From: Aplectana chamaeleonis
Lineage: Eukaryota; Nematoda; Chromadorea; Rhabditida; Cosmocercidae
Assembly (NCBI GenBank): GCA_029168955.1
Contig: JAPDOI010001536.1
Coordinates: forward strand, 92,501 to 156,500
Length of the DNA: 64,000 bases
Direction of reading: 5' to 3'
This document shows, in pieces, positions 25,457-62,929 of the stretch. A model generated the notes under the pieces. It was not told the origin of the DNA, made no database searches, and was given only the letters and a program-made list of their open reading frames with translations. Both the position numbers and the translations under genes were made by a program. The number at the start of each line of letters is the position of its first letter. Position 1 is the stretch's first letter.

Positions 25457-26922
25457 TTAAGATATGTTCAAACGAACGGAGTGGTCCTTAGGTCGCCGCT
25501 TGAGATGGCGTTATGAGGTGTTGGTACCTCTTTCGTGTCAAGCGTTGATGTGAGGCGTCGGTCTCGTTGTAGAGATCTTCAATGTGGGGCATCCGCTGCC
25601 AAAAACATCCGAGCAAACCTCTAAACAGCTTTCTCTCCGTGCAACCCTACCTTTCCATTTACGTCTTCGGTGCTTCCCACGTCTCCGATCCGTACATCAT
25701 GATAGGGTGAATACCGGGTAATTCGACGCGCAACTTGGCTTCCCTCACGATGGGGTAGAACACAAACACTTGGTTAGAGAATTGAATGCAGATATAGCTT
25801 TCGCATATCTTTGTTGATTATCCGCTGCATACCCACCATTGTTCTTGAGCAAACAGCCTTAATAACAGGAATCATCCACCAGTTCAATACGCTGTCCGTC
25901 CACACAAACTCCCCTCGAAGGACTCTGAGAGACCCACATCCGCTTGCATTTGTCGGGACAAAGAGGGCTACATAGGCTACGGCATACTTCGGAACAAAGT
26001 TCACAATCCTTTGCAGTTTTCAATTGTTCTCAGCGAATAACACATGGTCTTCGGCATACTACAGGTAGACAAGCGAGCGTCCTGATGGTGTTAGGATCAC
26101 GTCCGCAAGAAACTGTTCTGCAACTCTACCCATGATGCCATCAACGACAAAGTTGAATAGAGAAGGACCCGCTACAGCTCCTTCCTTGCCTTGCTCCTGT
26201 TTTCACCTCAAAAGCTGACGCAAATCCGGCAGATATACGAACTGCTGATGTTGTTCTTTTGTTGATGCCCACTATTAGTCGAACATACTTTCCCGGGACT
26301 CCGCTGGCTCGCAGAGCGTTGTGCATTCGATCACGATGAGGAGAGTCGAATACGGCTCCATAGTTCGAAAAAGTAATCTGTAATGGCTTTGAATACCACT
26401 GCCAGATTCAATTACTCTTCTCACGACGAACACTTGGTCGATGGTCAATCTTCCAGGGCAAAAACTGGCTTGCTCCTCTGTGGTCGCTTTCTCACGTTTG
26501 AGAGTCGCTCAAAACTGATACGTTTCAGAACTTTGTACATGACACGCAGTAGAGAAATTCCCTTCAGTTCTTGGAGTGCGTGACAGATAACTTTTTGTGA
26601 AGAGGTACTATGATAGCATGTATCTACGGATCGGGTACACGGGCATCCATATGGCACGATTGTTTTTGGTGTCACTTCACGAATCCCAGACGGAGGAAGA
26701 GCCTTCAGCATGTCAGCAGTGATGTTGTCATCTCCACCTGCCTTTTCATTTCTCATTTTCCGGACACAATTCGAAACTTCAGCCTCAGTAGGCGGTTCCT
26801 CACTGACATCGTAATGTGCTCTCTGAGCATTCGGGAGCTCACGTACTGATGGTGCTGGACGATTCAGTAGTGAGCTGAAGTAATCCTTACATCACCATTC
26901 ACAACTCCACTGGTAGTTTACA

Positions 26923-27245: not shown

Positions 27246-28076
27246 TCATAACAGCGTATAGACCTCGGAGAAATGCGAACAAGTTATTTCTATCATAAAG
27301 GGCCGAGAACAAGTTAATTGTAACATATCTAAGCTGATGTAAGCTACTTGCGACTTATCTCAGACCATTTAAATAACATGCAAGATATCGACGACACACC
27401 GCGGACAGTGCGCCTCCGATATGTTACAACTTAAACGGCACAAGATAAGTCGCAAGTAACTTAAATCGGCCAAGAAGGCATTTCCTTGAGAGTATGCGAC
27501 GCACTCTCGCGGTCAGGCTTAGGGAAGGCGTTGTTATTGGTTTAATTACCCAAGTTTGAGGTATTTGACCGCACACTAGCAGGGAATGCCACGCAAAGCG
27601 TTTTCCACTTAGCGTTTGGTCTGGGACAGTTGCGGACGAGTTTTTCGCGTCTCGTGTGGTCCATGTCTCGTCATGGCCACCCACGGTGAATATGTAAGTG
27701 TAAGTTACATGTAGCACAAGTGTAACTTACAGTATAAATGTATGCTACAGGTAATATAAATGTAAGTCACTTGAGACGTTCAAGTAAGTTACATTTATTA
27801 TGGAAGTAATTTGCTTTAACTTTTCTGAGTTGATCCCACACGAACAGGGAAGGCCTCGCACAGCGTTTTTCGGGTAACGTGTAATGTAGGACGCATGCGG
27901 ACACGTCGCTTCCCGTCTGTGTCGCGTGATGACCACTCATGGTGGAACTATAAATGTAGGTTACATGTAAAATACGTGTGTAACTTACAAGCAATATAAA
28001 TGTAAGTTACTTGAGTTATTCAAGTAAGTTAAATTTATATTACAAGTAACTTGTTTTCATTTTTTGAGTTTCTCAT
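27246..28076. mobile_element. SL-carrying inverted-repeat element, copy 1
   Basis: Interrupts the RTE copy, with a possible TCATA duplication at both junctions. It is rich in the near-palindromes AAGTTACTTGTAACAT, AAGTTACATGT and their variants. It is homologous along most of its length to 62081-62903, including the segment with CGACGCACTCTCG, the spliced-leader sequence, and GCGTGATG.CCACTCATGG. An internal duplication (27838-27950) repeats the post-leader segment without the leader. There is no ORF. Confidence 0.8.
27539..27560 (+). ncRNA. Exact SL1 spliced-leader sequence (SL RNA-derived)
   Basis: All 22 bases of the nematode SL1 leader are present, from GGTTTAATTACC to AAGTTTGAG, immediately followed by GTATTTG, which keeps the GT donor of an SL RNA. 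CAAG in the leader can pair with TTTG after the donor, as in SL RNA stem-loop I. Downstream, no convincing Sm site (AATTTTTGG-like) was found; the closest is GAGTTTTTCG near 27628. It lies within a mobile inverted-repeat element, not a 5S-linked cluster, so it is probably an SL-gene-derived segment; whether it is expressed is unknown. Confidence 0.75.
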
Positions 28077-40713: not shown

Positions 40714-43700
40714 ATGGAGTCTTTGGCCACAAGCCACAATTTCGCCACCATGAACTGTCGATCGCTGTCGAGTGATATCCAAAAAACTGCGCTATCCAGA
40801 CTTCTGAGCTATTTCCATGCACCGTTTGCTGCTTTGCAGGAAACCCGCCTCAAGGATAGACCCGTCATCAGCGTCGGAGAGTACACCATCTACTGCGGTA
40901 ACGCTGACGATAGGAGAGTGGGAGGCTGTGCAATAGCTGTAAGGAAGGATTTCAATGGTATGGTCAAGGAGTTCGGCTCAACGTCGTGTCGGAATGCATT
41001 CGTACGACTGCGGGATCACAGAGGATTCAATCTGTGGATAGTGAGTGCTCATGCGCCCACTGAAACCGCCGAAGACAATTCGAAGGATGCGTTTTATGAG
41101 GAACTCAATACGTTGCTGGCCAGGATACCTTGTCAACATGCTGTTGTCGTGGGGATTGACGCAAATGCGAAGATGGGACTTGATCAGGAATCCGAAGTAC
41201 TCGGTAAATGGTTCTACCCAGTGGAGCAAACATCGGACAATGGCTACCGCCTTGTCGACTTTTGTGAACGCAGTGGTCTGATTATTGCATCGACATTCAA
41301 GAGGAATCATCGCCGCCATCAGCTTACGTGGCAGGGACCAACCCGGCTATCTCCAGAAGAGCAGCGGAAGCGAAAGATGACAACTTTGAAACTACAGCTT
41401 GACTATGTCCTGACGAGGAATATTCCAGTATCGCACATTCGAAGATCTAGAGCTGTGTGGGATGTCGCATTCGATTCGGATCACCGTCCTGTTCTGTTGA
41501 ACTTCACTGCGAGGATTCATAAGAGGAAGCGAGGGGCTCAGCCTCTTCAGAGGATTGACATGACAAGTCTCAGAGATGAAGAGTGCAGAAGGAATTTCCG
41601 ACAACGCGTTTCTATTCACATCGGAGTACGGACTAAGAAGAAACTTTGCGACGCGGACTCTTTTGTCAAGTGCATCCAGGACGCTTCGAAAGAGGCACTC
41701 CCGGTTGTACAGCCTAAGAAGAAGTTCGCCTACGTCTCAGAAGAAACAACATCTACCTACAACAGAGTATGTGCTCTCCGAATTGCAGGAAACTTCGTGG
41801 AGGAGAAGCGTCTGAGGAGGAAGTTGCGTCGGCAGCTTCAAAGTGACCGCGAACGAGAGTGGACGTGTAGAGCTAAGGAGTTCGAGAAGGCTTGGGAGGA
41901 GAAGAATCCGAAGAAAGCCTACACGTTGCTGCGACAGTATAGCGGGAAGATGAAGAGATGTTCTCCTGTCTTGAACACTACCAATGGAGTTGCAGTTGGT
42001 GATGCGACGCTGCCAATATGGAAGGATTACTTCAGTTCACTACTGAATCGTCCAGCGCCATCAGTACCTGAGCTCCCGCATGTTCAGAGAGCACATTACG
42101 ATGTCAGTGAGGAACCGCCGACTGAGTCTGAAGTTTTGGATTGTGTCCGGAAAATGAAGAATGGAAAGGCAGGTGGAGATGACAACATCACTGCTGAAAT
42201 GCTGAAAGCTCTTCCTCCGTCTGGGATTCGTGAAATGACCAACACCATCCGTGCCATATGGATGAGCGAAAGGATACCCGATTCGTGGAGACATGCGATC
42301 ATCGTACCTCTTCACAAGAAGCTATCCGTCACGGATCCTAAGAACTACAGAGGAATCTCTCTACTTCGTGTCATGTACAAGGTTTTAGAACGTATCATTC
42401 TCGAGCGACTTATCAAACATTGTGAAGGAACGACCAGAGATGAGCAAGCCGGTTTTCGACCTGGAAGATCGACCATCGACCAAGTGTTCGTCGTGAGAAG
42501 AGTAATTGAATCGTGGCAGCGGTTTTCGAAGCCATTACAGCTTGCTTTTTGGACTTTGAAGCCGCGTTCGACTCTCCTCATCGTGATCGATTGCTCAATG
42601 CTCTGCGAGCAGATGGAGTCCCGGAAAAGTATGTTCGGTTAATCGAGGACATGAACAAAGGAACAACAGCAGCAGTTCGTACTTCTGTCGGATTTACGTC
42701 AGCTTTCGAGGTGAAAACAGGAGTAAGGCAAGGAGCCGTTGCAGGACCTTTTCTTTTCAACTTCGCCGTTGATGACATCATGCGTAGAGTTGCAGAACAG
42801 TTTCCTGCGGATGTGATCCTAACACCATCAGGACGCTCCCTTGTCGACCTGGAGTACGCCGACGACATTGTGTTATTCGCTGAAAACAACGCAAAACTGC
42901 AAAGGATTGTGAACCTCGTTTCGAAGTATGCCGCAGCCTATGGACTTCGTCTTCGTCCCGACAAATGCAAGCAGATGTGGGTCTCTATGAGGCCTTCAAC
43001 TGGAGTTTGTGTGGACGGACAACGTATCGAACTGGTGGACGATTTCTGTTATTTGGGCTGTTTGCTGAAGAACGATGGTAGTTATGCAGCGGATATTCGA
43101 CAACGATGTGCGAAAGCTACGTCTGCATTCAATTCTCTAACCAAGTGTTTGTGGTCTACCACCATCGCGAAGGAAGTCAAGTTGCGCGTCTACCTATCCG
43201 CTATTCGCCCTATCATGATGTACGGATCGGAGACGTGGGCAGCACCGAAAACGCAGATGGAAAGGTTGGATTGCACGGAGAGGAAGCTTTTAGGCGTTTG
43301 CTTGGATATTTCTGGCCGCGTGTATGCCATAACGAAGACCTTTACAACGAAATCGACGCAGTACATCAACGCTTGACACGAGGGAGGTGCCAGCATCTCC
43401 TAACGCCATCTCAAGCAGCAATGGAAAGTCGACTTCGACTGCTCGGGCATATACTAAGAAGAACGCCGGATCGGCTCGTACAACACGCTTTAAAAATGCT
43501 TCCAAATCCTGTCTGGAAACGGCCACCTGGGCGTAGGCGAAAGTTCTGGACGGATGTGGTTAAAGAGGATTTAAAGTCACTCGGCATCGAAAGACAGTTC
43601 AGGCGCGATGTTTCGTTTCGCAGGAAATGGAATAGTGACAGCTGGATGGAATGTGTTCAAATTGTGGCTGAAGACCGTGAAAAATGGACACGGCTGACTA

Positions 43701-51560: not shown

Positions 51561-52214
51561 GAAAGCACGCATAAAATCTGTCCAAAGGCGGTTGTCTGCC
51601 CAAGCGGTCGGCGTGCGTGTCGAGAATAAAAAAAAAAGAAAAAAGTCGTGATCGTGAAAAAAGACGTAATTAATTAATTACCTATTTATTTATATATTAT
51701 TTACTTTATTTATTGTAACACACTTTAACAACATAATCATGAAATGGAATATACGAACCGCCCCCCCTCCCCCACCGAACCGCAAACTTTTCTGCTTTTT
51801 TCATTTCTGCTTTTTGATTTTATAAATATGCGACTCATCAAGTATTTCATATGTTGTCGAAAAGTCGGATATTCGAAACAAATTTCATTTGGGACGAGTA
51901 TAGCAGGGATATGTAAAGTCTTAAAAAGTCCGAAGAATAAACCGTAGATCAATACTAACAGCACTGAGTAATGGAGGAAGGGTAAGACTTCAAGGTGATA
52001 TCATAGAATTCGAACTAGGCGAAAACTGATCAGGCCAATCTCTGAGTTTTAGCCGTAACAGCCTTGAAATGCCTGCTAGCCGCGTAATAGCTGTGAAAAT
52101 AGCCGCGAATTAACGCTTGCCGCGAATTAGCCGCTAAACAGCCGAAAAATAATGATCTCCAGGTAGATATATTGCGCATTCCAAAGGCAATATTCAGAAC
52201 TCAACACCTCCGTC
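51561..52214. other. No gene; simple AT repeats
   Basis: A TTAATTAATTA/TTTATTTA-rich tract at about 51668-51715. From 52060 GCCGCGAATTA-type words are repeated four times (TAGCCGCGTAATAGC, TAGCCGCGAATTAACGC and others). Confidence 0.45.
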
Positions 52215-52236
52215 GGTTCAGTTACCCAAGTTTAAG
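52215..52236 (+). ncRNA. SL1-like spliced-leader sequence, 19/22
   Basis: Starts GGTTCAGTTACC and ends AAGTTTAAG; it differs from SL1 at positions 5, 7 and 20, and is followed by GTTCTTGG, keeping the GT donor. CCAAG in the leader can pair with CTTGG after the donor, a stem-loop I-like fold. The surrounding sequence is not the 27/62-kb element. A possible Sm-like CTTTTAG lies about 100 bases downstream, but it is weak. It could be a diverged SL RNA gene or pseudogene. Confidence 0.5.
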
Positions 52237-52586
52237 GTTCTTGGTCCTCGTTCAGCCTCTTGAGGCCCCGCCGAATCGCTGGATGGTGGCTTGGCGAACC
52301 GGCGACGGTTGAGTCTGAGCTACTTTTAGTCACTTCTCAATACTTCTCGGTTATATCTCGTCTATTTCTCAGCTTATTCTTGTCCGTTTCGTCAAAATCC
52401 GAGAAATAGCCTAGAAATAGCAAATGAAAGGAAATACAGGCATGGGACAACTTGTCCACCAATTTTTCGCCTTGGAATAACAGGCTTTTTTTAGGAGCCA
52501 GAAATCCTTTGGTAGGGGGTCTTGAACGATTTTAAAGATACCACTGTTATCATATTATGCATGAACACTGAAAAACAATTTTCCAG

Positions 52587-61560: not shown

Positions 61561-62080
61561 TCATTTGGAATGGTTAGTATGACTACAGTAGTTCCCTTGT
61601 TAGACTAGACAGTGCAAGACGCTCAGATCCCTTTTTTATTACAACAAAACAGAAACAACAACAACAACAAAAACTACGTCTACAGCAAGGATTACAAGGC
61701 AAAAAAAGGACTGCGCCGTGTTTATCCTCCCTTAAACTAAGATTTAGCGCTGTCAGATCTTGAAAAAAGAGAAAAAACGGCATCATTCTCAATAACCGAC
61801 TGCGTAATTGTATTCAGTCTGATCTTCGGTCATTCCCATGGTTGTATATGGATCAGAATTGTATTTTTCCGTAATCATCACTGTACGCTTCGGTCTAACA
61901 TTTTCTCGATTGCGGCGGAATGTTGCTCCATTTCTATGAAACTCGTATCTGGCCTAAACTTTCAGTGTATTATACTTAGGCATTAAAAAGTTACTTAGTA
62001 AGACCCACATCCCCGCCCTCTTGCTCTATGGCCACTGCAAAGTGGCTGAGGAGGTCGAAATCGTATGATCGATCATTGGT
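61561..62080. other. No gene; short (AAC)n tract
   Basis: An AACAACAACAACAAC-type tract at about 61648-61668. The rest was not recognised. Confidence 0.45.
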
Positions 62081-62903
62081 CGAGAGATCGCCGCGTCGAA
62101 CACAGGTGGCACGCAAGCGAGGAGGTAATGATACTCAGAAAAACAAAAACAAGTTACTCGTAACATAAAAGGCCGAAAACAAGTTACTTGTAACATATCT
62201 GAGCCGATGTAAGTTACTTGCGACTTATCTCAGGTCATTTAAGTTACATGTAACATATCGGCGGGATACTGCGTGGGGTGCGCCTTCGATATATTACAAG
62301 TAACCTAAATGACTTGAGATAAGTCGCAAGTAACTTACATCAGCTTGGATATGTTACAAGTAACTTGTTTTCGATTTCTGAGAAGACACTGCGTGAAGTG
62401 CGCCTCCGATATGTTACATGTAACTTAAGTGGCATAGTATACGTCGCAAGTAACTTAAATCGGCCTAGAAGATATTTCCCAGGGGGATATGTACGACGCA
62501 CTCTCGGGTTCAGGCTTAAAACTTGCGTTCCTGTTGGTTCAATTACCCAAGTTGGAGGTACTTGACCCCCCACCAGCAGGGAAGACCGCGCACAGCATTT
62601 TGTTGCGTAGTATGTGGTTTGGGACGCGCCCTCTGCGTCGCGTGTCGTCTGCGTCACGTGATGGCCACCCATAGTGAAAATTCGAATGTTAGTCACATGT
62701 AACATAGGTGTAACTTACATGTAATATAAATTTAAGTTACATGTTATATAAATGTATGTTACATGTAATAATAATGTAAGTTACTTGAGACATTCAGGTA
62801 AGTTACAATTATATTACAAGTAACTTGTTTTGATTTTTCTGAGTATATCATTACCTACTCGCTCGCGTGCGTGCCACGCGTGTTCGAAGCGGCGATCTCT
62901 CGA
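62081..62903. mobile_element. SL-carrying inverted-repeat element, copy 2
   Basis: Terminal arms of about 95 bases: TCGAGAGATCGCCGCGTCGA, GTGGCACGCAAGCGAG, GGTAATGATACTCAGAAAA at the left, inverted at the right up to CGATCTCTCGA. Inside are many AAGTTAC(N2)GTAACAT-type palindromes on both flanks of a unique centre (62405-62680) that holds the leader-like sequence. Copy 1 is at 27246-28076. It has no ORF and is presumed mobilised in trans; the transposase class is unknown. Confidence 0.85.
62536..62557 (+). ncRNA. SL1-derived leader sequence, 20/22
   Basis: Lies at the same place in the element as the exact SL1 at 27539. It starts GGTTCAATTACC and ends AAGTTGGAG; the changes are at leader positions 5 and 19. 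The GT donor follows (GTACTTGACC), and CAAG pairs with CTTG after the donor. It is likely a decayed copy of the SL segment. Confidence 0.65.
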
Positions 62904-62929
62904 ACAGTGGTCGACGATATTTCATTTTA

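Follow-up and report, generated by a model that had tools for sequence, protein, structure and literature searches.

We found three sequences resembling the nematode spliced leader SL1 in the window (the whole 64-kb stretch of DNA analysed), where dinucleotide shuffles give an expectation of 0 SL1-like sites. Each lies inside a short element with terminal inverted repeats (TIRs), and candidate copies of these elements number in the thousands; the three elements are here named W1, W2 and W3. The family leader of these elements is GGTTCAATTACCCAAGTTTGAG, with a C at position 5 (the C5 form). The leader of W1 (27539-27560, + strand) is an exact 22/22 match to SL1 followed by GT, as the initial annotation had reported. 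The leader of W2 (62536-62557, + strand) matches SL1 at 20/22 positions, having C5 and one further change. A third leader (52215-52236, + strand), absent from that annotation, has the C5 form and matches SL1 at 19/22 positions. The features are as follows.

27264 to 28068, + strand: W1, an old family-B TIR element of 805 bp that holds the exact SL1 (ends placed by visual comparison with young copies and with a paralogous empty site)
27464 to 27538, + strand: upstream region of W1, resembling that of 5S-linked SL1 RNA genes (local alignment)
27539 to 27560, + strand: leader of W1, exact SL1, the T5 form of the family leader
27561 to 27570, + strand: GT donor of W1 and a strand able to pair with the 5' part of the leader, as in stem I of SL RNA; somewhere in these ten bases the homology to native SL1 RNA ends
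27565 to 27831 and 27830 to 28070: internal duplication of W1, about 265 bp (by alignment)
41758 to 41986, - strand: paralogue of the host repeat without W1 (empty site), matching the flanks of W1
52040 to 52421, + strand: W3, a degenerate family-A TIR element with the left end CTCTGAG (right end approximate)
62134 to 62843, + strand: W2, a young family-B TIR element of 710 bp with the 2-bp target duplication TA

W1 and W2 are collinear (72% over 468 nt), with the leader at the same internal place. The homologous element described earlier near 62 kb, with its 20/22 leader, is real, and its extent is 62134-62843 rather than 62081-62903. The TIR of W2 reads CTCAGAAAAA.../...TTTTTCTGAG. A different element, an inverted repeat at 62064-62121 and 62862-62919, flanks the W2 insertion site; it is not common to other W2-related copies and is part of the sequence that W2 inserted into. 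At W1, no target duplication was seen. Among 40 scored of the 3273 first-look candidates obtained with W1 as the query, three relatives extend over nearly its full length at 84-87%, and the three closest match SL1 at 21, 18 and 16 of 22 positions (counted by eye). The repeat interrupted by W1 had been taken for an RTE copy, a designation that our analysis did not bear out: the one ORF tested beside W1 (26448-26891, - strand) has no Pfam match.

Families A, B and F have element ends CTC(A/T)G and 2-bp target duplications, and their sharp TIR ends are common to copies at unrelated sites, which marks them as TIR DNA transposons or MITEs. Family A elements are about 500-570 bp long, with the TIR CTCTGAGAGTTTTGGCC and 2-bp duplications in several copies (by eye). 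With W2 as the query, we obtained 4686 first-look candidates, scored 40 and fetched 20 full copies, which are the best matches to W2 and hence young. The leader is at the same place in 20/20 of them. A 2-bp target duplication was seen by eye in 19/20 young copies, L074 being the exception and L085 being counted by reading its first bases as changed. The duplicated dinucleotides are TA in 12 cases, TT in three, and CT, AC, AA and CA in one each (by eye). The Tc1/mariner superfamily duplicates TA only, and membership of family B in it was rejected because the targets are not TA-only. CA is duplicated at the short TIR element L034 and at L132, described below.

The C5 leader has 1837 exact copies genome-wide and exact SL1 has 1024 in the 1.037-Gb assembly, while reversed-pattern controls yield 0 for both. 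SL1, its linkage to 5S and the types of element found point to a nematode genome. Both the 20 young family-B copies and the 20 old family-B modules fetched with W1 give a leader consensus with C at position 5. Thus, the exact SL1 of the window is one substitution away from the family leader. Sampled sites were assigned to families with leader-masked BLAST searches (cut-off 1e-4); the sampled loci are not random, since they were taken from the first listed places (contigs C1-C11, and C1 alone for C5). Exact SL1 was sampled at 62 sites (60 loci), 13 of which belong to family A, 3 to family B and 46 to neither. Families A and B account for 23 of the 24 C5 sites (20 loci), with 7 and 16 sites, respectively, and one site belongs to neither. 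Five of the 16 lie in a tandem array of family-B modules with the C5 leader and a period of about 371 (L089, C1:5168350-5170620). A BLAST search of plasmids with a 162-nt query and a search of viral contigs for exact SL1 gave no match.

A profile search of the same genome with RF00198, the model of the 5S-linked nematode SL1 RNA gene, produced 256011 candidates, of which 50 were scored, and three matches of 99 nt (L129, L130 and L131) came out, at 50, 48 and 45.6 bits against a cut-off of 75. A 5S gene follows each match 290 bp further along the same strand. L130 and L131, which agree at 98% over 1.9 kb, may be one duplicated locus. Any of these three native-type genes may be an orphan, all scoring below the Rfam cut-off. 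We aligned the 75 nt before each element leader to the 80 nt upstream of each native gene and compared the scores with 2000 shuffles. The upstream region of W1 scored 16.5 against L130 (reached by 0/2000 shuffles), 16.5 against L131 (1/2000) and 12.0 against L129 (46/2000). With the best of the three genes, scores of 54 for uL034 (element L034), 21 for the family-A copy uL014 and 19 for the old family-B consensus were reached by 0/2000 shuffles, as was that of uL037; the family-A consensus was reached by 1/2000 and uL021 by 6/2000. The likeness is weaker for W2 (30 to 171 of 2000, by gene) and W3 (37 to 191 of 2000, by gene), and several elements fail against the poorest-fitting gene, L129 (uL021 388, W3 191 and W2 171 of 2000). 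The control, 47 leader sites that belong to neither family A nor family B, has a maximum score of 13.0. Scores of at least 13.5 are found in 14/21 family-A copies, 5/20 young B copies, 5/9 C5-sampled B copies and 1/3 T5-sampled B copies, and the young B copies, with a median of 12.0, are mostly no better than the control maximum. In these alignments, likeness to native SL1 genes is present in older copies and weak in young ones. The upstream similarity between families A and B varies with the consensus and the method (reached by 0/300, by 1 and 8 of 5000, and, as a negative result, by 1418/5000 shuffles).

Downstream of the leader and GTACTT, the best comparison (uL034) was reached by 32/1000 shuffles and the others by at least 79. 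The similarity to the SL1 gene stops there, and the window copies are thus without an SL RNA body. They share with the 5S-linked SL1 RNA gene the leader, the GT and the partner strand of stem I, to which older copies add the upstream region; they differ from it in lacking the rest of the SL RNA and in being dispersed in TIR elements. An Rfam search of the 64-kb window gave no match at the gathering score, and W1 scores only 21.7 bits against RF00198 (cut-off 75). Single-sequence folds of the window copies, a check proposed in the initial annotation, have z about 0 (-0.39 to 0.22). On these sequence grounds, the window copies are fragments of SL genes, not genes.

L129, one of the three native-type loci, is a TIR element in which two leaders enclose a complete SL1 RNA-5S unit (C29:1226600-1228600). 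Its 46-nt inverted repeats (525-570/1769-1814) enclose, in order, leader 1 (canonical SL1), SL RNA, 5S and leader 2 (GGGTCATTAACCCAAGTTTGAG), with the leader starts 710 bp apart. The left arm matches the short TIR element L034 (165/189), and the promoter matches L034 at 52/60 positions versus 39/57 for native L130. The SL RNA (98/99) and the spacer with 5S (425/436) match L130, and past leader 2 the sequence matches L034 again (236/282). The RF00198 match covers the whole model. The ends of L129 are altered, with no clear-cut target duplication. In L132 (contig C187), the arms of L129 are found at 93.7% and 92.4% identity with one C5 leader at their junction and no unit. Ninety nucleotides of L129 including leader 2 (1427-1516) are 100% identical to the start of L134 (C1353:65000-66620), a tandem array of SL RNA-5S units. 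The leader of L134 is not canonical SL1 but the variant GGGTCATTAACCCAAGTTTGAG, present twice, 704 bp apart; this variant may be a further spliced leader. A second TIR element, L133, has an SL1 leader, an SL RNA (83 identities over 97 positions) and a 5S gene (110/119), with AT where the donor GT is expected. The leader appears to be the point at which TIR elements and SL1-5S arrays recombine: the two leaders flanking the unit in L129, the unit-free L132 and the identity with L134 are the remains expected of such recombination. The near identity of the L129 unit to other SL1-5S units argues that it entered recently. Loss of a unit by deletion between leaders accounts for the short forms equally well.

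We consider it likely (a probability of about 0.8) that the window leaders are remnants of an SL1 RNA gene that form an internal segment of the short TIR transposons of families A, B and F, a segment captured from a 5S-SL1 array, spread by transposition and recombining at the leader. An ancestral element would have taken in a stretch of a 5S-SL1 tandem array comprising the upstream region, leader and GT donor, up to GTACTT. Transposition, with first-look candidates in the thousands, would then have spread it, its leader drifting meanwhile. That leader would remain a stretch of homology to the real SL1-5S array, and in L129 recombination between element leader and array would have placed a unit-length SL1 RNA-5S segment between leaders, so that a whole SL1 RNA gene is carried. 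The scheme starts from what was observed directly, namely the element anatomy, the copy numbers, the upstream likeness of older copies, the breakpoints of L129 and the unit-free L132. Beyond this, it presumes a particular sequence of events, a single ancestor of families A, B and F, and mobilisation by a transposase in trans. Capture and dispersal had been proposed in the initial annotation with the exact leader as cargo, a proposal that holds in its broad lines. The TIR elements, with candidate copies in the thousands, do contain an SL1 gene piece (upstream region, leader and donor), and L129 and L133 have SL RNA and 5S as well; the exact leader gives way to C5 as the family consensus.

To our knowledge, the movement of SL gene clusters and the rise of variant leaders in nematodes are poorly explained. 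A TIR transposon that takes along the upstream region, leader and donor of SL1, and in the case of L129 the whole SL1-5S unit, is a concrete, testable route for such movement. A tentative extension, which we hold to be possible but rather unlikely, is that TIR elements are vehicles for spliced-leader genes. The leader would serve as a recombination site for the entry and exit of unit-length SL1-5S segments, and transposition would seed transcribable SL1 or variant SL genes and help arrays move and change their leader.

The spread of working trans-splice donors by the window copies, as initially envisaged, finds no support: having no SL RNA body, these copies are probably not working donors and are presumably silent. 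More generally, a captured promoter in the dispersed elements could transcribe (variant) spliced leaders, or their leader exons could splice in cis, and mRNAs would then start with the C5 or GGGTCATTAACCC leader. The upstream region, leader, GT and stem I do recur in old copies, the SL RNA of L129 looks intact, and the alignment folds of families A and B are steadier than column shuffles, at most 1/100 of which are as low (a control that ignores dinucleotides). In five unselected family-A/F copies, including uL034 (family F) and leaving out uL036, where the leader region is missing, the leader is also less changed than its flanks (9/110 vs 136/842, p 0.033). However, in young family B, where 1/20 copies have exact SL1, the leader diverges by 1.59% vs 1.92% for the element, and 336/679 windows are at least as conserved. 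In old family B, the corresponding values are 9.8% vs 12.0% and 41/219 windows; 0/20 copies have exact SL1, 3/20 have the exact C5 form, and the leaders differ from C5 in 17/20 and from SL1 in 20/20. The leader is barely better kept than its surroundings in unselected family-B copies, so any selection on it is weak at best. We therefore regard dispersed working donors as improbable.

The leader of the TIR elements might instead derive from trans-spliced, reverse-transcribed mRNA, an origin that other sampled SL1 copies of the same genome fit. Of the 46 exact SL1 sites that fall in neither family A nor family B, LTRs hold at least 15 and LINE 5' ends about 7; the remaining 24 or so were assigned to neither type of retroelement. 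Seven LTR pairs (L041, L015, L045/L046, L027/L028, L029/L030, L049/L050 and L052/L053), picked like the other LTR sites for exact SL1, have it in both LTRs, making 14 sites. The sequence TGGTGCATCGGC, which would fit a primer site for tRNA-Gly, occurs within about 210 nt of 7/62 exact SL1 sites; the unpaired L038 is among these and brings the LTR sites to at least 15. The distance from SL1 to the end of the LTR is about 60-85 nt, except in L029/L030, where it is about 350. ORFs beside L027 and L029 match DUF1759 over its cut-off and DUF1758 and the integrase rve below theirs, from which we infer that these families are of the BEL/Pao type. The LTR leader perhaps serves in strand transfer after trans-splicing of genomic RNA. 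A polyadenylation signal just before SL1, which would have supported a reading of SL1 as the R region, is seen in only 2/18 sites treated as LTRs, counting L010, L011 and L019, whose LTR status is assumed, and this line of support was dropped. Seven LINE sites open exactly with SL1 (L025, L034, L039, L043, L055, L060 and L061), and endonuclease or reverse-transcriptase domains are found at L043, L034 and L025. Within L043/L055/L061 and within L025/L060, the downstream sequence is common, the upstream sequence is not, and SL1 starts abruptly. L039 and L043 show the same LINE with SL1 attached at two different acceptor places, the downstream attachment following ..CACAG.

The TIR elements differ from these retroelement copies. 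Family A and B copies are alike on both sides of the leader, and many have SL1-gene-like upstream sequence, GT and the stem partner. SL1-gene promoter-like sequence, which reverse transcription of a trans-spliced mRNA would not bring along, is found upstream of the leader in older copies. The elements have TIRs with 2-bp duplications and the C5 leader, and the LTR primer site was found in 0/24 C5 sites (in the stretch examined). The window copies have neither an LTR with a primer site nor a 5' boundary with unrelated upstream sequence. An origin by reverse transcription is thus very improbable for the TIR elements. Least credible, to the point of being negligible, is convergence on SL1 or a chance likeness in a transposon that uses the stretch otherwise: C5 would make the leader start resemble a tRNA B box, but chance is ruled out by the shuffles (0 expected) and by the reversed patterns (0 in 1.04 Gb for both leader forms), and the older copies' match to the SL1 gene upstream and L129 contradict convergence as well.

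Dispersed SL1 outside 5S clusters is in itself already in print for PAO retrotransposons of Brugia malayi (PMC7181701), and SL-bearing retrotransposon loci with other leaders are described in flatworms (PMC12582326, PMC5832876). The authors of these studies infer SL addition to RNA by trans-splicing (PMC7181701, PMC12582326, PMC5832876), and the LTR and LINE copies found here fit this published effect of trans-splicing and reverse transcription. All are dispersed SLs inside mobile elements, a kind to which the LTR and LINE copies from the present genome also belong. The window leader, in contrast, came with upstream gene sequence and the donor and lies in TIR elements. The sections consulted of two other reports offer partial parallels. 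The Tm1 Mutator/Foldback elements of root-knot nematodes (PMC3169594) likewise have TIRs that are composite and repetitive, and they include MITE-like members as well as members with a gene or motif enclosed by the TIRs, but they have 9-bp duplications, and SL1 is mentioned there solely as an acceptor site. Dada elements (PMC3706591) are also DNA transposons tied to multicopy small RNA genes; they insert into U6, U1 and tRNA genes with 6-7 bp duplications, whereas the elements described here carry SL1. In the portions of the open-access literature that our search covered, no paper was found that describes SL RNA genes within TIR transposons, and the C5 leader string was not found in the open-access papers searched. 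The same leader also occurs in another repeat family, E, whose two copies L026 and L105 differ in having T5 and C5 (one each). A count of dispersed SL1 sequences can thus combine copies of three origins: those captured as DNA by TIR elements, and those acquired through trans-splicing by LTR elements or by LINEs.
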